From positions 2,232,001-2,296,000 of the forward strand of contig NZ_CP041372.2 of the NCBI RefSeq assembly GCF_006965545.2: a stretch of 64,000 bases of DNA. Direction: 5' to 3'. The translations under genes and the position numbers were made by a program. The notes under the pieces are model-generated. The model did not search any database and was not told the DNA's origin. It worked only from the letters and a program-made list of their open reading frames with translations. Positions 16,644-58,246 of the stretch are shown here, piece after piece. Origin of the DNA: Paenalkalicoccus suaedae. Lineage in GTDB: Bacteria; Bacillota; Bacilli; Bacillales; Salisediminibacteriaceae. Each line of letters starts with the position of its first letter. Within the stretch, counting starts at the first letter, position 1.

Positions 16644-16649
16644 TAGCTA

Positions 16650-17990: not shown

Positions 17991-17991
17991 G

Positions 17992-20245: not shown

Positions 20246-20272
20246 GCCTCACCCACCTTTTTGTAATAAAAA

Positions 20273-20294: not shown

Positions 20295-20300
20295 CGACAT

Positions 20301-20432: not shown

Positions 20433-20473
20433 TTTGTCGTCCTCCTCGTTTTAGTTGTTGCGCATAAGGCGTC

Positions 20474-20628: not shown

Positions 20629-20638
20629 AGTGACCTCC

Positions 20639-20968
20639 TTATAGTCCTAGCTCGACCATTGAAAGTCTAAAATCAATGTCTACTAGGTAATCTGAATAGT
20701 TTCCTTCTTGATCATCTTGAGGGATTTGCGCGACTTCCCACGTACGTACCACCTTATTCTCTTGTACCTCCGTTTGAGGATTCGTTGCGTAGTGAGTATC
20801 CGTATCATACTCCTCAACGACTTCCTCGACAGGAAGCCAACCGTGGGATTTATGCACTTCATGTGGCAGTAAGTTAAATCCACTGATCGTCTGACCGTCC
20901 TCTAACCGTAAAACTTTAGGTAAACTGGCGAATCGATCAATCTCACCGTTCTTAATATGTGCGTACAA
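20639..20968 (-). CDS. Unrecognised tail-region protein (first copy)
   Basis: 109 residues from the TTG at 20968, chosen because AGGAGG lies 8 bases before it; the in-frame GTG at 20977 overlaps that site. Starts Y-A-H-I-K-N-G-E-I-D, contains L-P-H-E-V-H-K-S-H-G-W-L-P-V and ends in D-F-R-L-S-M-V-E-L. Features of small tail-fibre-associated proteins, but no family named. Identical in second copy. Confidence 0.7.
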   Translation of the reverse strand: MYAHIKNGEIDRFASLPKVLRLEDGQTISGFNLLPHEVHKSHGWLPVEEVVEEYDTDTHYATNPQTEVQENKVVRTWEVAQIPQDDQEGNYSDYLVDIDFRLSMVELGL

Positions 20969-20980
20969 GGCGCTCACCTC

Positions 20981-21477
20981 CTATTTCTCTAGCCATAGAT
21001 TAAATACCGAAGTAGTGTAAGAAATATCTGTCCCTGATGTGTTTTCTGGCATATACAGCTATAAAAAAACTCACCGTTAAAACTTGATATATCAATTTCA
21101 TCCGTTCTTCTAGCAAAGTTTCCTGTTTGTAAAACTTCTGCTAAATTAGTTGTTCTTGGGTTAACATCTCTCTGGTTCATAATGACAAAACCAGTCGTTC
21201 TTAATCCACCAGAAGTTTGATTTTCCCAATCTATATACGCTTTAGAATATGGAGACAAGTCAAATGCTACTTCTGTAACTGCTGTTCTAGTTGCGCTAAT
21301 ATCTAATCTTCTCGCATTAATAAGCATTCTTCCGTTCAGTGGAAAACTTAGACTTCCTGCACCTTCTGCGAATCCTTGTATGAATGGAGCGTTATTATTA
21401 AATAATTCATAAAGATACAACTCTCTTGGTATCCCTCCACCTGCATAGCGCAATTTATCAGCTAACATCGAAATCAC
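20981..21477 (-). pseudogene. Tail/baseplate protein, double frameshift in this copy
   Basis: Two single-base insertions (T run at 21042-21045, A run at 21063-21069) change the C-terminus after F-N-G-E-F-F. The second copy (57752-58246) reads through to A-V-Y-A-R-N-T-S-G-T-D and ends N-L-W-L-E-K. The frame as found here stops at 20989. Confidence 0.8.
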
Positions 21478-43778: not shown

Positions 43779-44476
43779 CAAGGTACGTACACCACCTTGC
43801 CAGTGACCTCTTGCACCTCACGTTTAAAGCGTTCCTCGTCGCTGTTGCTGTCACTTAGGTGTAGGAGCCATATCTCCTGTACCTTCGATAAATCGTTGGC
43901 GAGTAAAAACTCCTTCACGTTGTCTAAGCTAAAGTGTGAGCGTAGCAAGCGCTTTTTCTGTGCCTTGTGCGTACGTCCAGTTGAGATGTTTCGATCTAAG
44001 ATGTCCTCCGAGTAATTACACTCCACCATGATGTGTGTTAAGCCTTTAAATCTGTATCGAACAAAGTACGTGTCAGATGCAAACAGCAGCTTGTCACCAT
44101 TCTTCGATGCGATCAAGAAGCCTAGTGGCTCCGATACGTCGTGTTCGACCTCGAATGGCATGATCGTAAGTGTGCCAAGGGTAAAGGGTTGCTTTGCTTC
44201 GATCGTTTTCAGGCGGTGTCCAGTAGCTCCTAACGCTTCTTTGGTGCCAAGGGATAGGTAAATGTCGATGCCTGCCTTGGCGACGTCTTCAATCGCCTTA
44301 CAGTGATCTAAATGCTCGTGTGAGATTAAGCAGCCTGCAAGACTGCTAGTCTCAAAATCTAGCTTGCGCTGTATCTTCTTAAACGGAATGCCTGCCTCGA
44401 TCAGGATGGAGGTAATGCCATCACTGATGTAATAGCAGTTACCTGTTGATCCTGTCGCTAATGTCTTGATGATCAT
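43778..44476 (-). CDS. MBL-fold metallo-hydrolase (phage recombination module)
   Basis: 232 residues. L-I-S-H-E-H-L-D-H-C is the H-x-H-x-D-H metal motif; further ligands in E-H-D and F-A-S-D-T-Y. Family includes YycJ-type 5'-3' DNA nucleases. It follows the RecT-like and Rad50-like genes, as in many Gram-positive phages, so it may be the nuclease of the module. Confidence 0.85.
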   Translation of the reverse strand: MIIKTLATGSTGNCYYISDGITSILIEAGIPFKKIQRKLDFETSSLAGCLISHEHLDHCKAIEDVAKAGIDIYLSLGTKEALGATGHRLKTIEAKQPFTLGTLTIMPFEVEHDVSEPLGFLIASKNGDKLLFASDTYFVRYRFKGLTHIMVECNYSEDILDRNISTGRTHKAQKKRLLRSHFSLDNVKEFLLANDLSKVQEIWLLHLSDSNSDEERFKREVQEVTGKVVYVP

Positions 44477-44478
44477 GA

Positions 44479-45642
44479 TTAAAATCCTAGACCAGGTTGA
44501 TCGGAGTTCTGCGCTTTGTCGAAGTCATCGTATATATCTTGATGCTTGCTATCTTTTTGCGGAGCATCGAATATTTCTCCAGTGTCCACGTCGATCGTTT
44601 CCGTTTGCTTAGGTGGATCTGCTTGCGGTTTCACTTCTGGTTCTGGATCTGGAGTAGGATCGTCATCTACTTCACTATGAGGAATGTCAATAAACGCTTG
44701 ATTAGCATTGCGGCTGATGTCTTCTTGTACTTGTTTCGTGTACTCGTCTGTCGTAGCTCGTTCGTACTGGATAGATGCAAATGACGTAGCAAAGTCTTTG
44801 GGGATTTTCTTTACAACGTTGTTTCGCATTTTACGGATGATCATAGACTCACGGCTTTGTGGATCCTTCCATGCCGGGCTGATATATTGCTGAATATCTT
44901 CACTATCTAGCGCGTCATCTAAGCTCATTTCCTTTACCTTGTTCATGATCTCGTTTTTCTTTGCGTCAATTTCCTGCTTTTGCTTAGGGCTGGCATCGAA
45001 TCGACTTTTCGCAATCCCAAACGTTTCATTCATAAGGTTGTTTTTAATGTGAGCGATTAGGTTACGAACGACGTCCTCGCGTTCTCCGATATGGTATTCC
45101 ACGACGTCGTTTGTCTTGATGATCGGATAAACAACACGTAGCACCTTGCCCTTGCCTGTAGGCGACCAAGATGGTGGAGATAACTCAAGCCCTGTATAAG
45201 TTGGATAGGTAAAGGCATCACCTTCACGAACCAGCCATACTTGTGCTACTTGCTTCACATCTCGACCGAATCGAGAGAGGATGGCATCATTGCCATCGCC
45301 CTCAATCCCCATTTCGATTTGCTTCTTCCATGCGTCCTTTTGCCCTGGAACCTTCACTTTGACGTTACGTGTTTGAAAGTACACCTCGCGTGGATCAGAT
45401 GATGCATTAAGCTTTAAAGCAGACACTTTCAAGAGAATGTCCGTTAGGTTGTTTTGATCTAGGTCAGCGTCGTTCCATTTGATTCCTTTGGTATCAAGTA
45501 CGTTGTTAATAGCTGCAATAGCATTGACGACACATGATTTTGAGTAGTCGTCCATATTTACACCATTGCTTGTTAATTGACGCTCAATCATCGGTGCGTA
45601 CGTGCTACTTACCTTTGCTAATCCAGTTGAAAAGTCTCCCAT
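44479..45642 (-). CDS. Candidate RecT/Red-beta-type single-strand annealing protein
   Basis: 387 residues. The middle part has K-Q-I-E-M-G-I-E-G-D-G, V-W-L-V-R-E-G-D-A-F-T-Y and a W-S-P-T-G-K-G-K segment, similar to the central RecT pattern (substrate strand, then V-x-E-G-D-x-F). The C-terminal ~80 residues are acidic, ending D-Q-P-G-L-G-F, like the tails of annealing or SSB proteins. Assigned mainly by position between a Rad50-like ATPase and an MBL-fold protein. Confidence 0.5.
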   Translation of the reverse strand: MGDFSTGLAKVSSTYAPMIERQLTSNGVNMDDYSKSCVVNAIAAINNVLDTKGIKWNDADLDQNNLTDILLKVSALKLNASSDPREVYFQTRNVKVKVPGQKDAWKKQIEMGIEGDGNDAILSRFGRDVKQVAQVWLVREGDAFTYPTYTGLELSPPSWSPTGKGKVLRVVYPIIKTNDVVEYHIGEREDVVRNLIAHIKNNLMNETFGIAKSRFDASPKQKQEIDAKKNEIMNKVKEMSLDDALDSEDIQQYISPAWKDPQSRESMIIRKMRNNVVKKIPKDFATSFASIQYERATTDEYTKQVQEDISRNANQAFIDIPHSEVDDDPTPDPEPEVKPQADPPKQTETIDVDTGEIFDAPQKDSKHQDIYDDFDKAQNSDQPGLGF

Positions 45643-45643
45643 T

Positions 45644-47656
45644 CTATACCGCCTCCTGTTTGATTGGTGTTTCTACTCGTAGCTCTTTGTCTTGCTCGGA
45701 CACGACTAGGCTAATGAGTTGTGCATCGATGTCGATTAGCTTTGTAACTGCCTCCGCGTTATCAACAAAGATTGGTGCAGACACTTGGTAGTGCTCGGCT
45801 AGTGTGTCGATGATGTCTAGGCCCACGTTGATTCGTGCTGCATTGTTTAAGCCCTTGCTGTAAGGGACGCCATTGTACGTTGTCTCACACGTTTCTTTGA
45901 CTCCCTCATTAATCTGCGTTTCGAAGAGCTTAAAGTTCGCCATCTTAAACTTGCTGTTGATCTTATCCTCTAGGAGCGCAACCTTTGCCTTGATAAACTC
46001 GTCCGCTAGATACACCTCTTGCTCTAGTTTTTCGTATTCGGATGCTAGTGTTCGTTCACGGTCTGCAAGCTCGTCACGGCGTTCCTGTGCGCGCTCATGC
46101 TGATCTAACATATCTAGTTGCTCACGTAATGCGTCACGCTTTGTGATAAGCTCCTGGCGATTCTCTTTAAGCTTTACGATCTGTTCATTTGCTTTCTCTT
46201 TGTTCATGTTTAACGTAAATTCCGTCTCGTTGATTTCGGTCATCTTTTCCTTGTATGCTTCCGTTTCTTCAAACGGCGTGAGGTTTGATTCCTTGTCTTT
46301 AAGTTGCGCCTTTAGCTCGTCAACATCGTTTGCTACCTCGCCGATCTTTTGCTCGACTTCTTTGGCGGCATCGTCCGCATCCTTGTAACGTTGCTCAAGT
46401 GTTTGGTAATCTACTTTTAGTCTTTTGCCTCGTGCATTGATGTCCTCAAGTTGCTGAGACTTACTAGCGTTAAAGGCTTGCTTTCGCTTGTTGTAGTCTT
46501 CTTTTGCCTTCTCGTGAGCTTCTTTGACTTGGTCGGCCGGCAATGCTTGCGCACATGTTGGACATGTATCCTCGCCAGTATGATGAAACTCTTCTTTATA
46601 CTCTTGTGAGTTGATCTCACTAAACTTGTTACGAAGCTTTTGGAGCTCTTGATTTGACCAATTACGATCATTTCCGAGCGATTCCATTTCGCGAACTAAA
46701 CGACTATGTTGCGCTTGGAGATCAGACAGCCTGTCCTTTTTGTCGTTAAGCTCTTTCTTTAAATCCGATGTAGCAGCACGCTCTTTGTCTCCGTGCTCAT
46801 ACTTTAAATTTGTTAGTTGGCCTTTCAACTCCGTGATCTCGTTTTGATAGCTTGCAATTGCGTTACCGTTTCGAACCTGTGTGACCTCATCATCTAGCGC
46901 CTCGATCTTGGCATCTACAACGTCAATATCATCCTTGATCTTTTCTCGCTTAAGACCTGCGATGTCAGGCAAGGTGCGATCGATTTCGTCAATACGTACC
47001 GGGATCGCCTCAAGCTCGTCGTTGATCTTCTTTTTCTTGCTCTTGACGATCGCTTTGATCTCGTCGATTGTGTGCTCTGCTAGGCGTCCTGACAGCTTTT
47101 TTAGCTTGTCATTGCTGTTTAGTACGTCTTCATTCGATACGTCACCACACACCTCTAGGAGGATGTCACGGCGTTGCTCACGCTTAAGGTGTTCGTTAAA
47201 GTAGGCTGGATTGGTCAGGAGCTTAAATGTTTCCTCATCGATAAGCTCAGCCACTTTGGATTGATAGTCTCCTTTTTTGACTGGTACTTCATTAACGAGA
47301 TAGTCTGTCGTGTGTCCAGTAAATTCGGATGTTGCGGCGCCGCGCTTCTTCGTCCACTTTTCCTTATAGATTTTTTGGAGTGTAAGAGGCTTGTTGTCGA
47401 CGGTAAATGATGCGAGTACCTCATGCTCCAAGCCGTGGATCACATTACCGTCGGCATCGACCGTCTTGATTTGGAAGTCTGCGCGGTTGTTGGCGTCCTT
47501 ATCAAGCAGGAGCCACATAGCTGCATCAAAGAGTGTTGTCTTCCCTGTCGCATTGTCACCAAAGATACGAGCATTGTCGCCGTCGGCGTGTAGTTCAAAG
47601 AGCTTAATGCCCTTAAAGTTGCGTAGTTTCATTGTGATTAATTTGATTTTCTTCAT
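45644..47656 (-). CDS. Rad50/SbcC-like SMC-type ATPase
   Basis: 670 residues. Walker A G-D-N-A-T-G-K-T-T at about 34-42, long coiled coils around a C-P-T-C zinc hook (about 365), and a C-terminal half-ATPase with L-N-N-A-A-R-I-N-V-G-L-D (signature-like) and Walker B A-P-I-F-V-D-N-A-E. The residue after the Walker B aspartate is N, with E two further on, unlike canonical D-E. Probably prepares DNA ends for annealing. Confidence 0.88.
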   Translation of the reverse strand: MKKIKLITMKLRNFKGIKLFELHADGDNARIFGDNATGKTTLFDAAMWLLLDKDANNRADFQIKTVDADGNVIHGLEHEVLASFTVDNKPLTLQKIYKEKWTKKRGAATSEFTGHTTDYLVNEVPVKKGDYQSKVAELIDEETFKLLTNPAYFNEHLKREQRRDILLEVCGDVSNEDVLNSNDKLKKLSGRLAEHTIDEIKAIVKSKKKKINDELEAIPVRIDEIDRTLPDIAGLKREKIKDDIDVVDAKIEALDDEVTQVRNGNAIASYQNEITELKGQLTNLKYEHGDKERAATSDLKKELNDKKDRLSDLQAQHSRLVREMESLGNDRNWSNQELQKLRNKFSEINSQEYKEEFHHTGEDTCPTCAQALPADQVKEAHEKAKEDYNKRKQAFNASKSQQLEDINARGKRLKVDYQTLEQRYKDADDAAKEVEQKIGEVANDVDELKAQLKDKESNLTPFEETEAYKEKMTEINETEFTLNMNKEKANEQIVKLKENRQELITKRDALREQLDMLDQHERAQERRDELADRERTLASEYEKLEQEVYLADEFIKAKVALLEDKINSKFKMANFKLFETQINEGVKETCETTYNGVPYSKGLNNAARINVGLDIIDTLAEHYQVSAPIFVDNAEAVTKLIDIDAQLISLVVSEQDKELRVETPIKQEAV

Positions 47657-47672
47657 TGGATAAACCCTCCAC

Positions 47673-47701
47673 TTGTTTAATTTTTCGGGTTGTGCTATAC
47701 T
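47673..47701 (+). promoter_or_regulatory. Strong-looking plus-strand promoter
   Basis: TTGTTT (47673-47678), 17-base spacing, TGC-TATACT (-10 at 47696-47701). Points against the lytic operon; the transcript would meet the terminator at 47737-47775. Confidence 0.55.
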
Positions 47702-47707
47702 AAAGAG

Positions 47708-47775
47708 GACTATATCTTTAGAGGCAACAATCCCTTGATCCGTTCAGTAGTGTAATTACTGGGCGGATCTTTTTT
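47708..47775 (+). ncRNA. Candidate ~70-nt antisense RNA with its own terminator
   Basis: Lies between the promoter above and the hairpin GATCCG-tt-CAGTA...TACTG-gg-CGGATC followed by six T. It is complementary to the 3' end of the 55-residue gene at 47756-47923 and to the leader of the Rad50-like gene. No open reading frame of note. Confidence 0.45.
47737..47775 (+). terminator. Plus-strand intrinsic terminator
   Basis: GATCCG / CGGATC outer stem with an inner CAGTA / TACTG-type stem and six T on the plus strand; no T run on the minus strand. Confidence 0.85.
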
Positions 47776-47923
47776 GGTATAGTTCGCTTTCGCGATACTC
47801 GACTTCACCTGCATACTCCTTAAGTCTTTCTAATTCTTGGATAACGTTTTCCGTCTTGCTAGCAGCAATCTTTGCCTCTCTTATCGCATCGTCTATAAGC
47901 CCAACCAGCTCTGTACCTGTCAT
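47756..47923 (-). CDS. 55-residue helical protein
   Basis: M-T-G-T-E-L-V-G-L-I-D-D-A-I-R-E-A-K; coiled, acidic, with AAGGAGGTGAGACAC before the ATG. Role unknown. Confidence 0.7.
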   Translation of the reverse strand: MTGTELVGLIDDAIREAKIAASKTENVIQELERLKEYAGEVEYRESELYQKRSAQ

Positions 47924-47936
47924 GTGTCTCACCTCC

Positions 47937-48059
47937 TTAAAATGTCTTAAGAAAACTGAACATCATATATAGGGGAATGATGATCGCTACCCACACAATA
48001 CCTTTTGCTGTGACCACATCGAGCAAGTGTAAGATGATTTCTTCCTGCTCATCCGTCAT
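47937..48059 (-). CDS. 40-residue single-span membrane protein
   Basis: M-T-D-E-Q-E-E-I-I-L-H-L start and membrane helix I-V-W-V-A-I-I-I-P-L-Y-M-M-F. ATGA overlap with the upstream gene makes it credible. Confidence 0.65.
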   Translation of the reverse strand: MTDEQEEIILHLLDVVTAKGIVWVAIIIPLYMMFSFLKTF

Positions 48060-48223
48060 TGATACACCGCCCTCTCAAAGCCAATGACCTGATGATCGAT
48101 GTTGCCGATCTTGTCCAACACTGCCTGGTTAACAGCCGGTCTGATTTCTGCCGAGCTATTAATCTCCAAATCTAGTTCCTCACACTTTCCGTTAATCTCT
48201 ACGTAAACTCTTACAAGACGCAT
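48056..48223 (-). CDS. 55-residue unrecognised protein
   Basis: M-R-L-V-R-V-Y-V-E-I-N-G-K-C-E-E-L; AGGAGGG before the ATG. Overlaps the HTH gene by 13 bases. Confidence 0.68.
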   Translation of the reverse strand: MRLVRVYVEINGKCEELDLEINSSAEIRPAVNQAVLDKIGNIDHQVIGFERAVYQ

Positions 48224-48489
48224 ATAAACCCTCCTACAATTCGTGTTAGTGCCTCAAGTACCGGTTGGATCGTTGTTACATCCATGCCTACCATCGCGGC
48301 TATCATTAAGTCCTGTGCGTTTGTGTGACGCATCCAGTTTGTAAACATGCTCAATTCGATTCGTTGCTTGCCTGTCTCCATCTTGCTGACTGCGGATATT
48401 GAGGTATACATATCGTGTGCCATTCGTTCCTGCGAAAATCCGGCACGCTCCCTCGCTTGTCTCATCACCTTGCCAAAATCTAGTTCCAT
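48211..48489 (-). CDS. XRE-type helix-turn-helix protein
   Basis: 92 residues: R-Q-A-R-E-R-A-G-F-S-Q-E-R-M-A-H-D-M-Y-T-S-I-S-A-V-S-K-M-E-T-G is a complete HTH_3 motif, followed by a hydrophobic C-terminal part. Possibly a second regulator of the early operon. Confidence 0.85.
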   Translation of the reverse strand: MELDFGKVMRQARERAGFSQERMAHDMYTSISAVSKMETGKQRIELSMFTNWMRHTNAQDLMIAAMVGMDVTTIQPVLEALTRIVGGFICVL

Positions 48490-48589
48490 CTACATGCACT
48501 CCCTTTCGATAAACGAAATTTTTCGAGAAGAGAAAAGAAATGCCACCACTTTCGTAGTAAGATTTACTTAAGACCTCCTCCCAGGTTGA

Positions 48590-48904
48590 TTACATTGCTT
48601 TAAAGACATGTTTCGTAGAAAACTCTTTACGACGATCAGCGTTTTCTTCCAACCATTGAAAAAATAGTGGCATCACAATCTTAGGGCGACCCAACTCCCT
48701 CGTTACTGGGTAAAATCCTGCTTGATTGATAAGCTGTGAACACTTTGCCCGTGAGATATCGACGTACTCGATAAACTCCGGAATGCTCATAAGATGCTTC
48801 ACACCGTTTGATCGCTTAATCTCCTCTACAATGAGTGGGGCTAGTTGTTTGGAAACCTCACCAGCAATTAGCTTGATCTCATCCTCGCTTAATCCGATCT
48901 GCAT
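48590..48904 (-). CDS. MerR/excisionase-like DNA-binding protein
   Basis: 104 residues. S-I-P-E-F-I-E-Y-V-D-I-S-R-A-K-C-S-Q-L-I-N resembles the HTH_17 winged-helix motif used by excisionases. V-T-R-E-L-G-R-P-K-I-V-M-P forms the wing. Could direct excision or act as an early regulator; not next to the integrase, so not certain. Confidence 0.65.
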   Translation of the reverse strand: MQIGLSEDEIKLIAGEVSKQLAPLIVEEIKRSNGVKHLMSIPEFIEYVDISRAKCSQLINQAGFYPVTRELGRPKIVMPLFFQWLEENADRRKEFSTKHVFKAM

Positions 48905-49058
48905 CTCGCTTTACCTCCTCTCTCTTGCGCTCTGACGCGCCTCCTTTTATCATGAGCAAGCCGTGTTTGTATCTCCCAAAATCCCGTAAAGGATAATTAC
49001 AAATGCGGCAATTCTCGTGCCACTCTTGCGGTTTCCAGTTGCATCTTGGGCAACTCAA
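48879..49058 (-). CDS. 59-residue zinc-ribbon protein (TTG start)
   Basis: TTG start inside TTGA, sharing bases with the stop of the upstream gene. C-P-R-C-N-W and C-R-I-C-N-Y-P-L-R pairs with tryptophans in between form a clear zinc ribbon; a basic helical tail follows. Overlaps the next gene by 26 bases. Not apparent from ATG starts. Confidence 0.72.
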   Translation of the reverse strand: MSCPRCNWKPQEWHENCRICNYPLRDFGRYKHGLLMIKGGASERKREEVKRDADRIKRG

Positions 49059-49261
49059 AACTCTTCCTCATCTACTAATTCATGCAGTGCTTCGTATGTG
49101 ATATCGAGAATGAACTCAAGGTAATACTCTCTATCTCCGTATTCAGTTCGAGTGCCTTTGTGATCGACTATCTCAAACTCGTAAACTGTCTCCTCTGACT
49201 GGTGCGCATGATCGATTGTTTCAAGAAGATTTAGTAATTTGTTGCGTTCTTTGAGGTTCAC
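49055..49261 (-). CDS. 68-residue acidic protein
   Basis: M-N-L-K-E-R-N-K-L-L-N-L-L; D-H-K-G-T-R-T-E-Y-G-D-R-E-Y-Y. Lies directly after the antirepressor (stop/start adjacent). Role unknown. Confidence 0.68.
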   Translation of the reverse strand: MNLKERNKLLNLLETIDHAHQSEETVYEFEIVDHKGTRTEYGDREYYLEFILDITYEALHELVDEEEF

Positions 49262-50035
49262 TTAACGCACCTCCTGCTTAAACTCTTTCAACAAGATAGG
49301 AAGAAACTTAACTTGTCCCTTACCGGTGATCAGTGTGGTCATTCTTTCGTAATCACCTTGAGTGCGTTGAATCAGTGAGGGAGAAAGTTTGAATAAGCCT
49401 TGTTCGATATATTGTTGCTTTGCGTTGTTCTTCTCTCGACCCGATTTGATGAGGTATCCTTTATCTCGCATCCACGCTATCAACTTATTGCGACCGATAT
49501 TGACACCGTGTTTGTCATAAATGAGCTTTGCGTAGGCTCCTAGATTGATAGCTGCGTCTGTGTTGGATACTGCTTTACCAAAGTTAGTAAATGGTTCGTC
49601 TTTCTTCTGTTTCTTTAATAACTGCTCTTTTTCTGCTCGTTCTGTCTTTAGCTGAGTAGCAAGATTGATCAAGGTATCTGGATTCAACAAGGCATCTTCT
49701 ATTGTTTGTGGAGTTAGATAACCTCCGTGCTTTCTAATAGAAGGAATGACTTCCGATGTGATCCACTTTCGAAATTGTTTTGCTATTGGCTTGCGAGAAT
49801 CCAAAATGACATCATACAAACCATCTTCATTAATAGTAGTAACGTACTGCTCTCTTCCTAGTCGATCGATGATGGGGTATGTTGAACATACGTCATCGGA
49901 AATCCTTTGCTTTACGACTCTGTGATTTACTTCTAAGATTTCGCAAACCTCAGATAATAAGAAGAAAATATCACCATTTTCTGTGTAAGCTTTAAAATCA
50001 ATACCTGAAAACTGAAATGTAATTAGATCAGACAT
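49262..50035 (-). CDS. Phage antirepressor (BRO-N + KilA-C type)
   Basis: 257 residues. BRO-N domain (about 1-105): F-L-L-S-E-V-C-E-I-L-E-V-N, Y-V-T-T-I-N-E-D-G-L-Y-D-V-I and R-K-W-I-T-S-E-V-I-P-S-I-R-K-H-G-G-Y; linker with coiled coil; C-terminal ANT/KilA-C domain with N-L-G-A-Y-A-K-L-I and W-M-R-D-K-G-Y-L-I. Overrides the repressor to favour lytic growth. Second gene after the early promoter. Confidence 0.92.
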   Translation of the reverse strand: MSDLITFQFSGIDFKAYTENGDIFFLLSEVCEILEVNHRVVKQRISDDVCSTYPIIDRLGREQYVTTINEDGLYDVILDSRKPIAKQFRKWITSEVIPSIRKHGGYLTPQTIEDALLNPDTLINLATQLKTERAEKEQLLKKQKKDEPFTNFGKAVSNTDAAINLGAYAKLIYDKHGVNIGRNKLIAWMRDKGYLIKSGREKNNAKQQYIEQGLFKLSPSLIQRTQGDYERMTTLITGKGQVKFLPILLKEFKQEVR

Positions 50036-50271
50036 TAGATCGCCTCCTGTTTTAATCTGGACGTTTCGTCCAAGTCGTCATCAAAAAAAATATCATCAAC
50101 GGTGCTGTCTAGCTTGTCCGCAATTTTTTTACCTAGCTCAATATCTGGAGTGCGGATACCTTGCTCGATCTTATAGTAATAAGATTCGGAGATACCGATG
50201 CCCTTAACAAAGTTTCTCACGTTCTTATGACCACTTTCGATGCGCTTACGTCGTAACTTGACTCTCATCAT
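50035..50271 (-). CDS. Cro-like XRE regulator
   Basis: 78 residues, XRE HTH with S-E-S-Y-Y-Y-K-I-E-Q-G-I-R-T-P. First gene of the leftward early operon, directly after the operators. Its C-terminal coding part (D-E-T-S-R) contains another operator copy at 50059-50071. Confidence 0.88.
   Translation of the reverse strand: MMRVKLRRKRIESGHKNVRNFVKGIGISESYYYKIEQGIRTPDIELGKKIADKLDSTVDDIFFDDDLDETSRLKQEAI
50059..50071. promoter_or_regulatory. Operator copy inside the cro-like gene
   Basis: GGACG-TTT-CGTCC, identical to the operator at 50286-50298. Confidence 0.75.
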
Positions 50272-50285
50272 CTCTCACCTCCGTT

Positions 50286-50298
50286 GGACGTTTCGTCC
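50286..50298. promoter_or_regulatory. CI/Cro operator, between early promoter and cro
   Basis: GGACG-TTT-CGTCC, perfect dyad, just downstream of the early -10 box. Confidence 0.85.
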
Positions 50299-50304
50299 TA
50301 TTTG

Positions 50305-50333
50305 ATTATTACTTTACTAGACGTTTCGTCCAA
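50305..50333 (-). promoter_or_regulatory. Early lytic promoter with overlapping operator
   Basis: Minus strand TTGGAC (50328-50333), 17 bases, AATAAT (50305-50310). A variant operator AGACG-TTT-CGTCC (50319-50331) covers the -35 box, so repressor binding should block it. Confidence 0.75.
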
Positions 50334-50347
50334 TTGCAAGTGTTTTT

Positions 50348-50360
50348 ATACATTTCGTCC
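50348..50360. promoter_or_regulatory. Operator variant near the repressor promoter
   Basis: ACATTTCGTCC, half matching the consensus, with a further TTGGACA half-site at 50375-50381. It probably mediates autoregulation of the rightward CI transcript. Confidence 0.6.
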
Positions 50361-50436
50361 AAAATATTTTTATAGTTGGACATATAGTGTAAAATAATTC
50401 TTGTAAACAACAATATAAAAAGTAGAGGTAATGCTT

Positions 50437-50814
50437 ATGAGCTTCGGTAAACGACTTACTCAATTAAGAAAGCGAGAGAAAATGTCTAGAGAAGATTTAG
50501 GCAATAAGCTTGGGATTAGTTACTCTACTGTAGCTAAATACGAAACAGGTCAACGCGAGCCTGACTTTGATAAATTGCAAGCTATCTCTTCATTATTTGA
50601 CGTAACAATGGATTATTTATTAAACGAGGAATACCCACCCAAACTGTCCAACGTCGAACTACTAGTAAGAGAAGCATCTGACCAAGGCATAGACATTGGC
50701 TTCTATAACATAAAAGATTGGGAACTTTTGACTGAGGAAGACGTAGAAGATATGAGAAAGCACATTGAGTTTCTCGTAGCCAAGCGTCGACAAATGCAGA
50801 ACGGCGACGATTGA
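50437..50814 (+). CDS. CI-like XRE repressor
   Basis: 125 residues from the ATG at 50437 (AGAGGT 7-12 bases upstream). N-terminal HTH_3: M-S-R-E-D-L-G-N-K-L-G-I-S-Y-S-T-V-A-K-Y-E-T-G. Short C-terminal part without a self-cleaving peptidase domain, so it is unlikely to be inactivated by RecA-type cleavage; the ImmA/IrrE-like protease at 51587 is a likely inactivator. Confidence 0.88.
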   Translation: MSFGKRLTQLRKREKMSREDLGNKLGISYSTVAKYETGQREPDFDKLQAISSLFDVTMDYLLNEEYPPKLSNVELLVREASDQGIDIGFYNIKDWELLTEEDVEDMRKHIEFLVAKRRQMQNGDD

Positions 50815-50910
50815 TAGGAATTTGTGCAAACATTTTCCTATTTTGTTTACCCATAACTGGGTATTTGTGCTATCATTAGCTTGTAATTTATAAAAAGGGG
50901 TTGTTTTACT

Positions 50911-51516
50911 ATGAAGAAATTGTCACTTGGGTTAGGCGCTATTACACTGGCGACTGTACTCGTAGCTTGTGGAGAGTCAAACGTTTCACAGGTGGAAACA
51001 GAAAATGAAGTTAATGCTGCAGAAAACGTAAACGAAACAGCAACAAACGGCGAAGTGAACGAGGAGCCTTCTAATGAAGAGGAACCAGCTAACGAGCCGG
51101 CAAATGAGCCAGAAGAGGAAGAAGTAGTTGAAGAAACAGTTACAGTCGGAGATACAATGAACTTTGACGGCTTAGAAATCACACTAAACGATGCATATAC
51201 ATCACAAGGCGGAGATTTCGAAGAGCCATCTAACGATCATTTCCTTGTTTTAGATATGACGATTGCTAACACGACTGACGAAGCAGCAAACGTTTCTACG
51301 TTCCTTCAAATGAGCGTACAAGACGACGAGAGCTTTACACACGATCCAACGATCATGCTTGAGGCGGCTGGATCACTCGATGGAGAGATCGGACCAGGAC
51401 GCGATAATCGCGGAGAAGTAGCATTCGACGTGAACGCATCAGAAACATACGAATTTATTTTCGAGAACCCATTTACATCAGGCCAAGCGATCTGGACGAT
51501 CGAAGGCGTAGAATAA
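50911..51516 (+). CDS. DUF4352 lipoprotein
   Basis: 201 residues: signal peptide with lipobox L-V-A-C, a ~60-residue linker of Glu, Asn and Ala, then a beta-rich DUF4352 (immunoglobulin-like) domain with F-L-V-L-D-M-T-I-A-N-T-T. Located between CI and the protease in the lysogeny module, so it is expressed in the lysogen and exposed on the cell surface. Superinfection exclusion is a common job for such phage lipoproteins (inference). Confidence 0.88.
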   Translation: MKKLSLGLGAITLATVLVACGESNVSQVETENEVNAAENVNETATNGEVNEEPSNEEEPANEPANEPEEEEVVEETVTVGDTMNFDGLEITLNDAYTSQGGDFEEPSNDHFLVLDMTIANTTDEAANVSTFLQMSVQDDESFTHDPTIMLEAAGSLDGEIGPGRDNRGEVAFDVNASETYEFIFENPFTSGQAIWTIEGVE

Positions 51517-51520
51517 TAGA

Positions 51521-51546
51521 GGAGCCCACGTAAGGGCTTTTCTTTT
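51521..51546 (+). terminator. Terminator after the lipoprotein gene
   Basis: GAGCCC-ACGTAA-GGGCTT stem followed by TTCTTTT on the plus strand. Confidence 0.75.
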
Positions 51547-51586
51547 AACCATTTAATCGAACATACGTTCTTGAAAGGGTGGTAAA

Positions 51587-52066
51587 ATGTACACGCATAC
51601 GCACAGAGAGGACTATGTATTTAAAATGTATAAGCGTTTGGGTATATACCGAGCGCAGGATATAAACGAAGAGTGGATCGCTAAGCAGTTGCGCATCTAC
51701 ATTAAACATATAGACAGACCGTCTCACTTTGCCCGTGACGGGAGATTTAAGGCGATCCTATTAGATAGTCGGGTAGACCGTAAACAGCGCAGGATGGAGT
51801 TTATGCACGAGTTAGGACACCTCTTACGATCGGCAGATGGATTTAATTACTTAGCACCCGAACTACGCAACTACTTGGAGTGGGATGCACGTCACTTTGA
51901 ATTTTACGCAGCTATGCCCTATCCGATGATGCGCCAATATGATCTAAATGACTGTGACATCATTAATACGTTATCGGATGATTTCGTGGTCCCTCATCAC
52001 TACGTCGAGGACAAGCTCACGTTCATCAAGCAAAAGCAACAACAATATGCACGGGTAACTTTCTAA
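51587..52066 (+). CDS. ImmA/IrrE-type metallopeptidase
   Basis: 159 residues. F-M-H-E-L-G-H-L-L is the HExxH zinc motif (about residue 82); E-W-D-A-R-H-F-E-F-Y-A later supplies the third ligand region. In ICEBs1 and phi105 such proteases cut the repressor on induction. Here it lies two genes after the repressor. Confidence 0.9.
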   Translation: MYTHTHREDYVFKMYKRLGIYRAQDINEEWIAKQLRIYIKHIDRPSHFARDGRFKAILLDSRVDRKQRRMEFMHELGHLLRSADGFNYLAPELRNYLEWDARHFEFYAAMPYPMMRQYDLNDCDIINTLSDDFVVPHHYVEDKLTFIKQKQQQYARVTF

Positions 52067-53377: not shown

Positions 53378-53409
53378 CTCCAAACCCCTTATGTATCAAG
53401 GGGTTTTTG
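53378..53409 (+). terminator. Integrase terminator next to attP
   Basis: AAACCCCTT / AAGGGGTTT stem with T run on plus; on the minus strand it also ends in TTTGG, so it could terminate the host gene at attR. Confidence 0.85.
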
Positions 53410-53416
53410 CTTGCTC

Positions 53417-53447
53417 TTACATCATTAATCCGATTCTTTGCCGATAT
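53417..53447. other. attP-like junction between the two prophage copies
   Basis: Left neighbour is the integrase end; from here the sequence repeats the left prophage end (TTACATCATTAATCC...). This is what the circular phage junction would look like. The TAA of the host-like 3' coding end lies at 53425-53427. Confidence 0.85.
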
Positions 53448-53568
53448 ACACAGACTTATCCACAATATCACCTACGCCTATTTTAAGGTGTTTATGACGT
53501 GTTTCTTCTATATAATATACACTCGCATCTATCTGCTTATTTTTTTCTGTGATAATTATGTGATAATC
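53425..53568 (-). other. 3' coding end at the attachment site (second copy)
   Basis: Same 47-codon open end as at 16658-16801, ending Y-I-G-K-E-S-D and TAA. Its right half contains the TGTGATA copies at 53548 and 53559. Confidence 0.6.
53548..53565. repeat. TGTGATA direct repeats on the gene side of attP
   Basis: Copies at 53548-53554 and 53559-53565, about 130 bases from the core; candidate integrase arm sites. Confidence 0.5.
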
Positions 53569-53590
53569 TTATTGTCATGAGGTGATGGAT

Positions 53591-53851
53591 ATGACGGATG
53601 CAGAGCGTAAAGTATTACAAATCATCAAGCACTTACATCAGCAAAAGGATAGAAAGGCTAATTATAAAGAGCTTGGGCTGTTTACAGGTAAGGATAAGAG
53701 CGACCTTATTAAGGTGCTTAAGTCATTGGAGACTATCGGTGAGATAGAAGTGGACTATGAGGCTCAGGTGGCGAGTCTTCCTGTAGAGTATCGTCACGAG
53801 AAACGAGCTCGATGGGATAGTGAATTTAATGAGCTTAATAAGAATATGTAA
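53591..53851 (+). CDS. Small phage protein, possible DNA-binding (second copy)
   Basis: Identical to the gene at 16824-17084, 86 residues with the same GAGGTGAT site. In a tandem array this copy would follow the integrase directly on the same strand, but the terminator at 53378-53409 lies between. Confidence 0.75.
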   Translation: MTDAERKVLQIIKHLHQQKDRKANYKELGLFTGKDKSDLIKVLKSLETIGEIEVDYEAQVASLPVEYRHEKRARWDSEFNELNKNM

Positions 53852-53876
53852 GGGGCATAACGCCCCTCTTTTTTAT
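53851..53876. terminator. Hairpin terminator between convergent genes (second copy)
   Basis: AGGGGC / GCCCCT stem plus T run, same as 17084-17109. Confidence 0.85.
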
Positions 53877-54523
53877 TTGTCCAATAACCCTGCTCGATCA
53901 AACATAGCAGCCATTTCTTGACGAGTTACAGGCTCTTGCGGTCTGTTTCCGTCTACAATGCCTGCCTTCGTTGCTTTTTCCCATGTCGCTTTAGCCCACG
54001 CTGATGGTTCGTTATTTGGTTTTGCACTCACATTAGTCACCCCCATATATTTTTGTACTCGTCTGCGAAAATCTACCATGTCAAAGTTGCGACCTGGGCA
54101 GTCGGTTGAACCGACATCCCTGTGACCTCGTACCGTTGTAGCGTTTACTGGTAGGTTAGCTTGCTTTAATACCCACGCTGTAAACTCTGCCATACTCTCG
54201 AGCACAACATCGCTTGGCTTCGCGCTATTAAAGTTGCCGGGTGTTGCGATACCAAAGTGATTGCCGTTATATCCTCTAGCGTGCGCCCCTTGCCTAAACA
54301 TTCTCCCTTGCACCTTTGTCCCATCTGTATCAACTAAACCATTATAACCAATACCAGAGCTTATGCCAGCGCTGTTGCGGCGCACATCACTATGGTCACG
54401 TTGAGCGTTCTCAATGGTATAGCTAAAGGGAGCGCCAAAGTGGTGTATAATGACGCCTCTTACGGCTGATGGTGTCATGGCAGCTACGTTGCCGATCTTA
54501 AACCCTCTATCAACGATATTCAT
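53873..54523 (-). CDS. Endolysin amidase (second copy)
   Basis: Identical to 17106-17756: Amidase_2 domain plus a C-terminal SLH-like segment, 216 residues. Confidence 0.93.
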   Translation of the reverse strand: MNIVDRGFKIGNVAAMTPSAVRGVIIHHFGAPFSYTIENAQRDHSDVRRNSAGISSGIGYNGLVDTDGTKVQGRMFRQGAHARGYNGNHFGIATPGNFNSAKPSDVVLESMAEFTAWVLKQANLPVNATTVRGHRDVGSTDCPGRNFDMVDFRRRVQKYMGVTNVSAKPNNEPSAWAKATWEKATKAGIVDGNRPQEPVTRQEMAAMFDRAGLLDK

Positions 54524-54757
54524 CTATTTATCCTCCCTTGGCTCTTTGTAGTTAAGGGCTCGTTTGCTGTCGCCAATACCCCTCACGACTGGATCGTTTA
54601 TGACCCCAAGTGTCACGGCAATATAACTGAGGTACTCCACATAGCGCCAGTACGCCTCTGTTGATAGTCCGAAGTCTCCTAATATCATTGCAATTAAACC
54701 TGCTATCGCTGCCAAAAAATAAGGGTTCTTAAATCGTACTTTCCAATTTATCTTCAT
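54524..54757 (-). CDS. Holin, phi-LC3 type (second copy)
   Basis: Identical to 17757-17990, 77 residues, two membrane segments. Confidence 0.92.
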   Translation of the reverse strand: MKINWKVRFKNPYFLAAIAGLIAMILGDFGLSTEAYWRYVEYLSYIAVTLGVINDPVVRGIGDSKRALNYKEPREDK

Positions 54758-54758
54758 G

Positions 54759-55190
54759 TTAGCCTCCTGCTAATGCTAGAATGATCGTTAGGATAAAACC
54801 TGCGAATGCTGTCACACCTGTTGCAATTAAGCCAATTAACCATCTGCGGTGTATCACTTGTTCTTTTTTCTGTTCGTCTATCCTGTCGTTGATTTCAGTT
54901 TTGTTTTCTCGGTCTCTTGTGTACAATCGCTCAATATGAACAGATTGCTCCTCTATCTTTTCCAAAGCCTTTCGTGCTTGGTTTTCTGCCGACTCTGCTT
55001 GACTGGATGCCTCGGAGGCTAGTGTTTTTGTATCTCGTATATCGTCATATACACGGTCTATTTTTTTGTCAAAATGACTCATAGTAGTCATGAGCTCTCT
55101 GATATCGGCCCGAATGCCCGACATCTCATCAATCATCTTATATGTTAATTCGGTATCTCCTCTCATTTGCTTTTGCTCCTCGCTACTCAT
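54759..55190 (-). CDS. XhlA-like membrane-anchored coiled-coil protein (intact copy)
   Basis: 143 residues. Coiled coil from about 10 to 115 (I-R-A-D-I-R-E-L-M, V-Y-D-D-I-R-D-T-K, I-E-R-L-Y-T-R-D-R-E-N-K-T-E-I) and one C-terminal membrane helix L-I-G-L-I-A-T-G-V-T-A-F. This layout matches haemolysin XhlA-type proteins found next to holin and endolysin in PBSX-like phages. One base separates it from the holin gene. The first copy is broken by a 2-base loss. Confidence 0.85.
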   Translation of the reverse strand: MSSEEQKQMRGDTELTYKMIDEMSGIRADIRELMTTMSHFDKKIDRVYDDIRDTKTLASEASSQAESAENQARKALEKIEEQSVHIERLYTRDRENKTEINDRIDEQKKEQVIHRRWLIGLIATGVTAFAGFILTIILALAGG

Positions 55191-55246
55191 GATTTCCCCC
55201 TAAATTCTCTCTATTTGTAACAGTAAAAGAGCCCTCGAATGGAGAG

Positions 55247-56410
55247 TTACGTCCTCGCCTCAACTGTACTGCGATTGATTAGCTTTTTTATCGTTTCTGC
55301 TGTTGTTTGGATTGTCTTGCCAAACTTTAAATCAAGATCAAACCCACTTTGCGAGTAGGTTTCGACACACTCCACAATGCGGTCATTAAACGAGATGCCC
55401 CATTCCTTAACCTGTATTGTCACAATATCACCTAAGTCGTAATCGACCTCATAGACAAAAGAGCTTTTGCGCAATGCTTCGCCCTCAAAATAAACCTCTT
55501 GCCGTAAGTCATTAAGAGCTTGCTCACCTCGCGCGACTAGTGTATCAATGATATCTTGCTCAGGTATTGGCTCACCGTCCTCGTCCTCTTCTTCCACGTC
55601 TCGCGCATCGACAAAGACCTCGTAACGTTCGCCACCTTCCGATTGGTCCACCTCGACGATCGTACGATCAATGCCCTCACCCTGCCCTGCAACGATTGCA
55701 ACGTTACGAAAGTTCCAGTTGCTTTCAAAGTAGTTGGCCGCCTTTAAACTGCGATAGGTAGGATCAGGAGAAAAGATAACAGGCTTTACCTCATCTTGGT
55801 CTGCGGTGCGGTCGACACCCTCAGCGACGTCTAAAATAACCTTTTCAGCGTCAAAATTAACCGATGCTCTCATTCCAATTCCACCAAAATCAGCAATGTC
55901 CGCGCACTCGTCTAACAAGTTTTTAAAACGTGTTTGGTAGATCGTCTGTGTACCTCTCCCCTCGTCAGGAGCTAGTTGTAAGATGGGATTGTTATTAGCC
56001 TCAATAGGCGAGTTAATCACGTTGTTGTCGATGTACGTCTTGATAATCGTCTCGGCGTTACTGTTAACATAATCGTAAGAGCGCCCGGTAGGTGGCAACG
56101 TAAGCACACGCGACAAAAAACCAAGCACATGCTGCGCTCGGACAATGATGTTTTCGGTGATTTTACCTGCTTGATCTAGCTCGCTCTCGACACTACGGAT
56201 TAGATACGCTTTATGGAGTTGGTTTTGGATAAAGACGATGCGATCCATCTTGAGTAGATCCGCACCTTTTTTGTGACGATTAATTTTTACCTCTAACTCA
56301 CCAGCTGTATAAAAGCGCCTTGTGAGCTTTAATGACTCATATAGATCCACGTCACCTAAAAATAAAAATGACTGGTCGATAACTCGTATTGGCTTGCGCA
56401 TCGTGCTCAC
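55247..56410 (-). CDS. Tail-tip Gp37-like protein (second copy)
   Basis: Identical to 18478-19641, 387 residues; overlaps the collagen-like gene by 4 bases (ATGA-type), showing coupling. Confidence 0.85.
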   Translation of the reverse strand: MSTMRKPIRVIDQSFLFLGDVDLYESLKLTRRFYTAGELEVKINRHKKGADLLKMDRIVFIQNQLHKAYLIRSVESELDQAGKITENIIVRAQHVLGFLSRVLTLPPTGRSYDYVNSNAETIIKTYIDNNVINSPIEANNNPILQLAPDEGRGTQTIYQTRFKNLLDECADIADFGGIGMRASVNFDAEKVILDVAEGVDRTADQDEVKPVIFSPDPTYRSLKAANYFESNWNFRNVAIVAGQGEGIDRTIVEVDQSEGGERYEVFVDARDVEEEDEDGEPIPEQDIIDTLVARGEQALNDLRQEVYFEGEALRKSSFVYEVDYDLGDIVTIQVKEWGISFNDRIVECVETYSQSGFDLDLKFGKTIQTTAETIKKLINRSTVEART

Positions 56411-57015
56411 CTCGCTATCACTAATACATAGATATTAACGGACGCCGCCGAACGTAATGTCGTGGTTATACCTAATAAACTACCTGTTATGCCTGTCGAG
56501 GCTCGTAGCACACAACGAGTGGCGTATTGCTCGATGACAGAGACAAACACCATCTCAGGTGAATTGGGCGACCTTTTAACTGGCGTTGCTTGGATATTAA
56601 TAATGGAGGTAAACGTTTGACCAAATGGCACATTAACGATCCCGTTAGAGTCCGTTACAGCCTCATATAAGTGCAATTTATACCCTTCATCTAGCCCAAT
56701 ATTGGCGGCGTCTCCTTTATTACCTCTATCTCCTCTAGGACCCTGCTCACCTTTATCGCCACGTTCTCCCTGTGGACCTTGCGGACCTTGTGAACCCTTA
56801 TCCCCTTTATCACCTTTAGGACCACGTCTTTGCTCTTGCATGTGCTCTCGTTTGAGCATCGGAGTAATATGCATTAAATTTACATTACCGTGAGCAAACA
56901 CGACACCGGCATTGGTTAAAATAGGATGTCGCTCTCGGTCTGTCTCCACGCTATCATTGTTGTTTATCGTCATGATGACTGACCCGGTCATTTGATCAAA
57001 GTAGATTTTACGCAT
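56407..57015 (-). CDS. Collagen-like tail fibre protein (intact copy)
   Basis: 202 residues: a ~60-residue N-terminal domain beginning M-R-K-I-Y-F-D-Q-M-T-G-S, 13 uninterrupted Gly-X-Y triplets (about 68-106; G-P-K, G-D-K, G-S-Q, G-P-Q, G-E-R), and a ~95-residue C-terminal beta-rich domain that probably makes the trimer cap and host contact. Collagen-like trimers are known in phage fibres. Between tail-tip and small fibre genes. Confidence 0.88.
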   Translation of the reverse strand: MRKIYFDQMTGSVIMTINNNDSVETDRERHPILTNAGVVFAHGNVNLMHITPMLKREHMQEQRRGPKGDKGDKGSQGPQGPQGERGDKGEQGPRGDRGNKGDAANIGLDEGYKLHLYEAVTDSNGIVNVPFGQTFTSIINIQATPVKRSPNSPEMVFVSVIEQYATRCVLRASTGITGSLLGITTTLRSAASVNIYVLVIAR

Positions 57016-57042
57016 GCCTCACCCACCTTTTTGTAATAAAAA

Positions 57043-57064
57043 AGAGCCCTCAAATGAGGGCTCT
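57043..57064 (-). terminator. Terminator in the tail-fibre region (second copy)
   Basis: AGAGCCCT / AGGGCTCT stem with six T on the minus strand, same as 20273-20294. Confidence 0.8.
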
Positions 57065-57070
57065 CGACAT

Positions 57071-57202
57071 TTAGATAACGCGATCATTAATTGCAAACTG
57101 GCGACCGAACCACATGCGCCACTGAACATAGTGTTTCTGTCCCTTTTCCTCATAGATTGTGTGATACTTAAGTGGTAGTAATTGCATGAGATACCATTTC
57201 AT
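57071..57202 (-). CDS. 43-residue unrecognised phage protein (second copy)
   Basis: Identical to 20301-20432, with the same GAGGAGG site. Confidence 0.65.
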   Translation of the reverse strand: MKWYLMQLLPLKYHTIYEEKGQKHYVQWRMWFGRQFAINDRVI

Positions 57203-57243
57203 TTTGTCGTCCTCCTCGTTTTAGTTGTTGCGCATAAGGCGTC

Positions 57244-57399
57244 TTATGCGTTGTTGAGCGACTCTGTCAGCTCGTTGTACTCATCTTGGCTAATACGACT
57301 ATTAAGCAAAAAGATGTCTAGCTTCTGCTGCATGTCCTCCACTGATGCGTATGAGCGTCTATCTATCATTGATTTACAGCCTCTATATGTTAATGACAT
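57244..57399 (-). CDS. XkdX-like small tail protein (intact copy)
   Basis: 51 residues, M-S-L-T-Y-R-G-C-K-S-M-I-D-R-R, then Y-A-S-V-E-D-M-Q-Q-K-L-D-I-F-L-L-N-S-R-I-S-Q-D-E-Y. Small size, position after the fibre proteins, and the final I-S-Q-D-E-Y-N-E-L pattern recall XkdX proteins, though the usual tryptophan start is missing. First copy is frameshifted. Confidence 0.65.
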   Translation of the reverse strand: MSLTYRGCKSMIDRRSYASVEDMQQKLDIFLLNSRISQDEYNELTESLNNA

Positions 57400-57409
57400 A
57401 GTGACCTCC

Positions 57410-57739
57410 TTATAGTCCTAGCTCGACCATTGAAAGTCTAAAATCAATGTCTACTAGGTAATCTGAATAGTTTCCTTCTTGATCATCTTGAGGGATTTGC
57501 GCGACTTCCCACGTACGTACCACCTTATTCTCTTGTACCTCCGTTTGAGGATTCGTTGCGTAGTGAGTATCCGTATCATACTCCTCAACGACTTCCTCGA
57601 CAGGAAGCCAACCGTGGGATTTATGCACTTCATGTGGCAGTAAGTTAAATCCACTGATCGTCTGACCGTCCTCTAACCGTAAAACTTTAGGTAAACTGGC
57701 GAATCGATCAATCTCACCGTTCTTAATATGTGCGTACAA
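57410..57739 (-). CDS. Unrecognised tail-region protein (second copy)
   Basis: Identical to 20639-20968; TTG start chosen for the same reason (AGGAGG 8 bases upstream). Confidence 0.7.
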   Translation of the reverse strand: MYAHIKNGEIDRFASLPKVLRLEDGQTISGFNLLPHEVHKSHGWLPVEEVVEEYDTDTHYATNPQTEVQENKVVRTWEVAQIPQDDQEGNYSDYLVDIDFRLSMVELGL

Positions 57740-57751
57740 GGCGCTCACCTC

Positions 57752-58246
57752 CTATTTCTCTAGCCATAGATTAAATACCGAAGTAGTGTAAGAAATATCT
57801 GTCCCTGATGTGTTTCTGGCATATACAGCTATAAAAAACTCACCGTTAAAACTTGATATATCAATTTCATCCGTTCTTCTAGCAAAGTTTCCTGTTTGTA
57901 AAACTTCTGCTAAATTAGTTGTTCTTGGGTTAACATCTCTCTGGTTCATAATGACAAAACCAGTCGTTCTTAATCCACCAGAAGTTTGATTTTCCCAATC
58001 TATATACGCTTTAGAATATGGAGACAAGTCAAATGCTACTTCTGTAACTGCTGTTCTAGTTGCGCTAATATCTAATCTTCTCGCATTAATAAGCATTCTT
58101 CCGTTCAGTGGAAAACTTAGACTTCCTGCACCTTCTGCGAATCCTTGTATGAATGGAGCGTTATTATTAAATAATTCATAAAGATACAACTCTCTTGGTA
58201 TCCCTCCACCTGCATAGCGCAATTTATCAGCTAACATCGAAATCAC
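57752..58246 (-). CDS. Tail/baseplate protein (intact copy)
   Basis: 164 residues: helical start (M-L-A-D-K-L-R-Y-A-G-G-G), then a beta-rich domain with L-D-I-S-A-T-R-T-A-V-T-E-V-A-F-D-L-S-P-Y and N-G-E-F-F-I-A-V-Y-A-R-N. Probably a small receptor-binding or fibre-tip protein, since it is next to the fibre gene; no family named. Overlaps 58227-59375 by 20 bases. Confidence 0.72.
   Translation of the reverse strand: MISMLADKLRYAGGGIPRELYLYELFNNNAPFIQGFAEGAGSLSFPLNGRMLINARRLDISATRTAVTEVAFDLSPYSKAYIDWENQTSGGLRTTGFVIMNQRDVNPRTTNLAEVLQTGNFARRTDEIDISSFNGEFFIAVYARNTSGTDISYTTSVFNLWLEK

Follow-up and report, generated by a model that had tools for sequence, protein, structure and literature searches.

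The window analysed here, a stretch of 64,000 nucleotides from the genome of Paenalkalicoccus suaedae, carries a prophage operon on its minus strand that encodes an SbcC/Rad50-like ATPase, a RecT-like annealing protein and also a metallo-hydrolase (phrog_392). Upstream of the ATPase gene lies a short promoter-terminator unit that points against the operon (Table 1), together with a small open reading frame (ORF) for which no family match was found at E 0.001 in Pfam or PHROGs. Two prophages stand in tandem (window 16627-21363 and 53394-58132, with a spacing of 36,767-36,771 bp; genome positions G000:C3 2279650 and 2316419). They are 97-100% alike across the five stretches compared, and the SbcC-like gene with its antisense unit is duplicated between them at 100%.

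Table 1. Features of the antisense unit and of the operon that it faces (window coordinates).
Feature	Position	Strand	Details
RecT-like annealing protein, next in operon	44479-45642	-	phrog_2185, E 5.1e-141
SbcC/Rad50-like ATPase gene, opposed cistron	45644-47656	-	phrog_77, E 6.8e-81
Shine-Dalgarno region GGAGGGTT of the SbcC-like gene	47663-47670	-	sequence and fold
Antisense -35 box TTGTTT	47673-47678	+	read from the sequence; aligns with TTG(A/T)NN of most curated relatives
Anti-Shine-Dalgarno AACCC	47687-47691	-	part of the H2 3' arm; its modelled partner, with antisense RNA bound, is 47663-47667
Hairpin H2 in the operon mRNA	47687-47734	-	outer arms 47724-47734 / 47687-47695; z -3.5
Antisense -10 box TATACT	47696-47701	+	TG extension at 47693-47694; spacer to -35 of 17 nt
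Predicted antisense RNA, ~67 nt	47709-47775	+	start inferred as ~7 nt past the -10 box
Intrinsic terminator	47737-47775	+	15-pair stem 47737-47769 (G-T allowed), then TTTTTT 47770-47775
Small upstream ORF, 58 aa from GTG / 55 aa from ATG	47756-47932	-	open reading frame

The initial annotation had described a TTGTTT box, a 17-nt spacer, a -10 box and then a terminator with six T, all on the plus strand, and direct reading of the sequence bears this out. Its proposed plus-strand RNA of ~70 bases agrees with our prediction of ~67 nt (47709-47775), for which fold computation gives a mostly single-stranded 5' part followed by the terminator hairpin; the fold of 47705-47776 outdoes 200 of 200 shuffles (z -3.9). 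The “strong double hairpin” of that annotation survives in part: the RNA contains one strong hairpin, whereas a start near 47709 deprives it of the left arm of the CTAAAGA/TCTTTAG repeat that spans 47700-47721. Both overlaps that had been noted hold, that with the leader of the SbcC-like gene by coordinates and that with the 3' end of the small upstream ORF through its stop codon, which sits in the terminator stem.

Within the window, neither the promoter nor the terminator is significant by itself, and one copy alone is only suggestive. The terminator has the most pairs among seven terminator-like sites in 44000-52000, a number at shuffle level (6.9 +/- 2.4), and a promoter scan of the window did not include the TTGTTT-17-TATACT site among the sites called because TTGTTT fits the -35 consensus at only three of six positions. 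With each half at chance level, comparison with relatives had to decide. Searches with the unit returned only weak matches in phages (E 0.4-5), no match by blastn in a plasmid collection, a second identical copy in its own genome with all others at E 1.7 or worse, nothing besides the identical copy better than E 0.053 in 35 genomes of the family, and, among 397 genomes of the order, two matches 25-30 nt long (E 0.0017 and 0.008). A known Rfam leader was rejected, as no family of Rfam 15 reached its gathering threshold in the window or in 20 relatives; the best sub-threshold match was His_leader (23.3 bits against a threshold of 49). A CRISPR-repeat mimic was also rejected, by eye only.

Relatives of the SbcC-like gene were therefore gathered from IMG/VR (the second search contributing the best 80 of at least 516) and from same-family, same-order and Sporosarcina genomes. 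From 131 upstream regions, one (L151) was dropped as too short and the remainder fell into 109 groups by similarity. A strict scan, demanding a promoter and then a terminator no more than 260 nt upstream of the gene start, identified a unit antisense to the SbcC-like gene in 39 of the 109 non-redundant phage loci, compared with 0/109 in the sense direction, 5/545 in dinucleotide shuffles and 11/456 at other gene starts of the same loci, several of these eleven resembling displaced copies of the same kind of unit. On this sequence comparison, it is recurrence among relatives that raises the window unit above chance.

A terminator-only scan gave 56 loci as the starting set for curation by eye, in which ten were removed (L016, L017, L018, L062, L068, L074, L095, L115, L125, L147), nine were added (L061, L088, L093, L081, L110, L161, L103, L144 and the displaced unit of L074) and the terminator of L067 was corrected, for a curated total of 55 units; excluding six with an unclear -10 box (L110, L121, L127, L144, L070, L023) left a test set of 49. 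In curated units, the -35 box mostly lies 12-20 nt from the start codon, the promoter spacer is mostly 17 nt (16-18 permitted) and the predicted RNA is mostly 45-80 nt long, with terminators at the corresponding place and T-runs on the antisense side. A MAFFT alignment of 21 units chosen as having the unit (A2) held only three invariant columns, T24, A25 and T29, all of them -10 positions. One sub-family (L097, L102, L129, L234, L237, L239) has TACGAT as its -10 box and a common GATTCCCAATC motif in the hairpin.

To capture this variation we built two covariance models, R1 from ten members and R2 from 67 R1 matches. Across 96 sources, R1 produced those 67 matches at E <=1, all antisense to the operon (66 examined by neighbouring ORFs, L172 by strand alone). 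Among the 66, 35 face the SbcC-like gene, 30 an ORF upstream of that gene and one no ORF that was found; an ORF start lies 5-59 nt beyond the -35 box in 65. Counting the curated units (the six with unclear -10 boxes included) and model matches at E <=0.01, with R2 run on 59 sources and model-building sequences among those counted, 78 of the 109 loci carry a unit, either at the gene or at a point higher in the operon (~1.3 kb up in L153), and 31 do not at this threshold. Two units were seen by eye in one operon in L110 and L127, and L092, L097 and L129 would also be double if weak second matches (E 0.01-0.26) were accepted; over all double-unit loci the spacing is ~170-1150 nt. A different arrangement is found in L167, L173, L174 (Bacillus Pagevirus) and L177, in which a terminator sits directly at the SbcC-like start and points away from the gene. 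No promoter was seen by eye before this start-site terminator in the Bacillus Pagevirus relatives and phage BUCT702, and the promoter of these four terminators might lie inside the coding sequence. In two staphylococcal phages (L175, L176) no unit was seen at the gene start.

Beyond these loci, matches were obtained in 50 of 397 genomes of the order (R1, E 0.05) and in 34 of 398 genomes of the class (R2, E 0.01), of which ~20 and ~4 respectively may be chance, as E-values are per genome. Besides SbcC-like genes, units oppose RecE/YqaJ exonucleases that have RecT next to them, a second SbcC-like family, Mu Gam-like proteins, a Rha antirepressor and small ORFs that precede DnaD-like loaders, some of these genes being named by resemblance to tested ones. 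Carriers include Listeria phages A118 and A006 (at RecE), B054 and LP041 (at the SbcC operon), Geobacillus GBSV1 and phiOH2, Parageobacillus JGon-2020a and Psychrobacillus PVJ1, with weak matches in Aeribacillus AP45 (R2 E 0.09) and Brochothrix NF5 (E 0.03), weaker ones in Enterococcus phiFL1A and Staphylococcus pseudintermedius DS3 (E 0.3), and no model match in Lactobacillus phage iA2. In record NC_003216 the antisense unit at the RecE gene occupies 31707-31796, for a predicted RNA of ~55 nt. Eleven phage records carry coding, ribosome-site and terminator features around the SbcC-like gene and no RNA gene annotated in the stretch. Matches in host regions with no recognisable phage genes nearby (L191, L193, L198-L201, L203, L205, L207) were rejected as likely chance hits or unrelated terminators.

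The window unit itself is weak by score and right by position. R1 aligned it end to end (17.6 bits, E 0.0011 over 601 bases, filters off) and R2 gave it 26.1 bits, which is E 0.22 over 522 kb, with E 1.7 when its own genome was searched; it gave no R1 match at E 1 among the 96 sources, and its source genome (G000) had no match in the order-wide R1 or class-wide R2 scans. Its -35 and -10 boxes, H2 and terminator nonetheless follow the family order at the operon start. A further R2 match in the source genome (L208, G000:C3:2497952-2498046, E 0.0145) lies amid HTH and Rha-like ORFs, in what is probably a further prophage.

Folding of the operon leader in silico gives a hairpin, H2, that brackets the antisense -10 box and whose inner stem joins 47715-47721 to 47700-47706. 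Only the operon mRNA has both arms, because the antisense RNA starts too late to include the first. The same layout is present in many units, with one arm in the promoter spacer and the other past the -10 box, often just before the terminator. Across the 49 test units, the inverted repeat folds better than shuffles (mean z -2.6, Stouffer -18), with z below -2 in 28 and below -1 in 33, and a clear H2 is absent from the other 16 (z > -1). When arms were cross-paired between units, no more than two of 48 foreign arms beat or equalled a unit's own in 23 of the 49, where ~3 would be expected; the window's arms are not among the best matched, as nine of 48 foreign arms do as well. RNAalifold predicted no pairs on A2, a null result that we attribute to misaligned arms. 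In ten alignable units with a structure set by hand (A3), 92% of cells pair, against 30-48% with slid partners, and double changes are found in nine of 19 pairs (4/10 in H2, 5/9 in the terminator), amounting to 31 double-change cells against 11.1 +/- 2.6 in shuffles, while the number of pair types showed no excess (168/500). As a hand-set structure favours itself, the cross-pairing test, free of alignment, was run alongside. The arms of H2 co-vary across units.

In many sense leaders the H2 3' arm is rich in C and complements the Shine-Dalgarno sequence. Direct duplexes between the two give a modest signal (3' arm, mean z -0.5 and Stouffer -3.5; 5' side, Stouffer +3.1), and we also calculated the cost of opening the Shine-Dalgarno sequence in the free leader and with the antisense-covered stretch blocked. 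With the block, the mean cost over the 49 units rises from 2.4 to 3.7 kcal/mol (mean +1.3, Stouffer 7.7; spacer shuffles +0.17), increasing by more than 0.5 in 27, so that pairing is predicted in silico to make the target ribosome-binding site inaccessible, with eight units going the opposite way. In the window the cost goes from 3.43 to 7.33 kcal/mol (+3.9), and in the modelled bound state AACCC at 47687-47691 pairs with GGGTT at 47663-47667 and the start codon is covered too. Composition explains part of this effect, given that spacer shuffles of the window average +2.2 +/- 1.3 and five of 30 attain its value.

The rise is larger in 26 further units facing other genes, where the cost climbs from 2.5 to 5.8 (mean +3.3; 20 up, none down; shuffles +1.0; Stouffer 9.6). 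These remained from 30 units hand-picked among model matches, four having been dropped for want of a scored terminator; in all 30 the first gene is not the SbcC-like gene of the first set (two face the second SbcC-like family), weaker or duplicate matches were omitted, and enrichment of H2 is partly selected because the model includes it. At ordinary gene starts that have a Shine-Dalgarno sequence (150 of 343), a comparable block of the first 55 of 105 leader nucleotides changed the cost by a mean of -0.21 (27 up, 42 down). Ten named phages could be scored, and in eight, all but AP45 and NF5, the cost rises by more than 2.4; one more, from Staphylococcus pseudintermedius, was left out because it has no scored terminator.

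The initial annotation had raised antisense control of the recombination operon, and the recurring sigma-A-type promoter, terminator, orientation and position, together with H2 covariation and the predicted Shine-Dalgarno switch, argue in its favour. We consider it fairly probable that a cis-encoded antisense RNA controls the head of the prophage recombination operon through leader fold and translation. In the model, when antisense RNA is scarce the mRNA leader would form H2, tying up the anti-Shine-Dalgarno strand and leaving the SbcC-like gene to be translated. Where it is present, its single-stranded 5' part would meet the H2 loop and pairing would extend into the 5' arm; the 3' arm would be released, its anti-Shine-Dalgarno would close the ribosome site and translation would stop. 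Such a switch could prevent translation of leaky operon transcripts during lysogeny, or could set a ceiling on the recombination proteins while phage copies, and antisense genes with them, increase in number; after induction, strong sense transcription would outrun the antisense RNA.

The best reading is that this RNA would work like RNAI of plasmid pSK41, which, in the passages of PMC5703833 that describe it, is counter-transcribed and proposed to induce a stem-loop hiding the ribosome-binding site of its target gene. The likeness lies in a short RNA counter-transcribed against an mRNA leader, with promoter and terminator counter-oriented within that leader, and in ribosome-site hiding, here predicted. 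As described there (PMC5703833), however, RNAI is ~83 nt long, folds into two stem-loops, binds its target ~100 nt upstream of the translation start and regulates plasmid rep, whereas the phage units are mostly 45-80 nt by prediction, have one strong terminator hairpin and oppose recombination genes. Passages on pMV158 RNAII describe an RNA counter-transcribed just upstream of the ribosome-binding site that blocks translation (PMC4485353, PMC5703833) and resembles ours in having an unpaired tail at its 5' end, a single hairpin and a 3' end rich in U; as described there it differs in its 48 nt, in a promoter inside the target coding sequence, in controlling repB and in a duplex proposed to hinder ribosome binding, in place of the released anti-Shine-Dalgarno strand predicted here. 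No location at a rep gene, as descent from the pSK41 or pMV158 copy-control RNAs would imply, was found, the opposed genes being phage genes.

By analogy, the nearest phage counterpart in layout is lambda OOP RNA, likewise a short promoter-RNA-terminator unit against an early lytic operon that overlaps the 3' end of a small gene, and passages of PMC5869508 report its action on the 3' end of cII, a proposed cleavage of the hybrid and a LexA site at its promoter. The phage unit instead opposes the start of recombination genes; the small upstream ORF has no family match, and no cII was found. LexA control was rejected, as no LexA-like box lies near the unit: none resembling CGAAC-N4-GTTCG, which we take to be the consensus, was found with up to three mismatches in 46885-48020. 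Elsewhere, CGAACATACGTTCT at 51558-51571, upstream of a 159-aa ORF adjoining the repressor region, is one mismatch from what is presumably the Gram-positive LexA box. The c4 antisense RNA of phages P1/P7 (RF01695) is a further phage antisense RNA for comparison; no Rfam family reached its gathering score in the window or in 20 relatives. Searches of an open-licence library turned up no earlier account of this element. Passages of the Listeria papers place antisense RNA of an A118-like prophage elsewhere (anti2330) and mention none where RecE begins, and the word “antisense” is absent from the main text of the SPP1 paper (PMC6316719); the literature covered also comprised passages of PMC2864571, PMC3911899, PMC6907008, PMC4627465, PMC6786865 and PMC7724050.

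Among the alternatives to antisense control, the one to be taken most seriously, though we think it unlikely, is transcriptional interference only, with the promoter firing head-on or blocking polymerase and the short RNA a by-product cut by the terminator. The orientation and the 17-nt-spacer promoters of most curated units suit it, and it needs no RNA structure, as in the 16 units without a clear H2; it does not by itself predict a covarying hairpin confined to the sense strand or a Shine-Dalgarno switch. Head-on interference may nevertheless act as an additional effect. Since the sense mRNA can form both H2 and the stem of the terminator, a sense-strand leader element could also be suggested, either an RNA switch or a protein-binding leader, to which the antisense promoter and terminator are incidental. 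This we regard as quite improbable, as the invariant columns of A2 (whose members were selected for the unit) are -10 positions only, T-runs fall on the antisense side and model matches all share one orientation.

Marginally less probable again is an inverted repeat around the -10 box serving as a DNA operator for a phage repressor of the antisense promoter: the repeat does bracket the -10 box and its arm sequence varies among phages, as in operators, but the distance between arms differs among units (by eye), the inner repeat of the window does not recur there beyond chance, and the Shine-Dalgarno effect would be left unexplained. Promoter-terminator units can also encode trans-acting small RNAs with host or phage targets elsewhere; here the RNA sequence is not conserved, whereas its position opposite an ORF start is, which makes this very improbable. 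Finally, although the counts of promoter-like and terminator-like matches in the window stand at shuffled level, pairing of the two by chance is hardly credible against the strict scan, arm pairing, covariation, model matches and rise in opening energy.

If control by a cis-encoded antisense RNA is right, the gap before the recombination genes gains a reason, and removal of the antisense RNA would offer a handle for studying RecT and RecE expression. It also supplies a testable rule, namely that the antisense -10 box lies within a sense hairpin and that the 3' arm of this hairpin acts as an anti-Shine-Dalgarno. Control of plasmid replication by antisense switches is textbook knowledge; for phages, to our knowledge, such switches are on record in a few cases only. 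Comparative statistics of sequence give the general class a good footing, and more tentatively, with the balance somewhat against it, temperate phages of Bacilli may share widespread, undescribed cis-antisense switches that gate SbcC-RecT, RecE-RecT and Gam-like modules with phage-specific, co-evolving arms. Made from every genome copy, the antisense RNA would in this wider proposal act as a copy-number sensor, capping recombination and keeping it off during lysogeny, in the way that plasmids restrain their replication initiators. Many phages of Bacilli, Listeria phage A118, a model phage, among the carriers, would then time recombination with an antisense switch.
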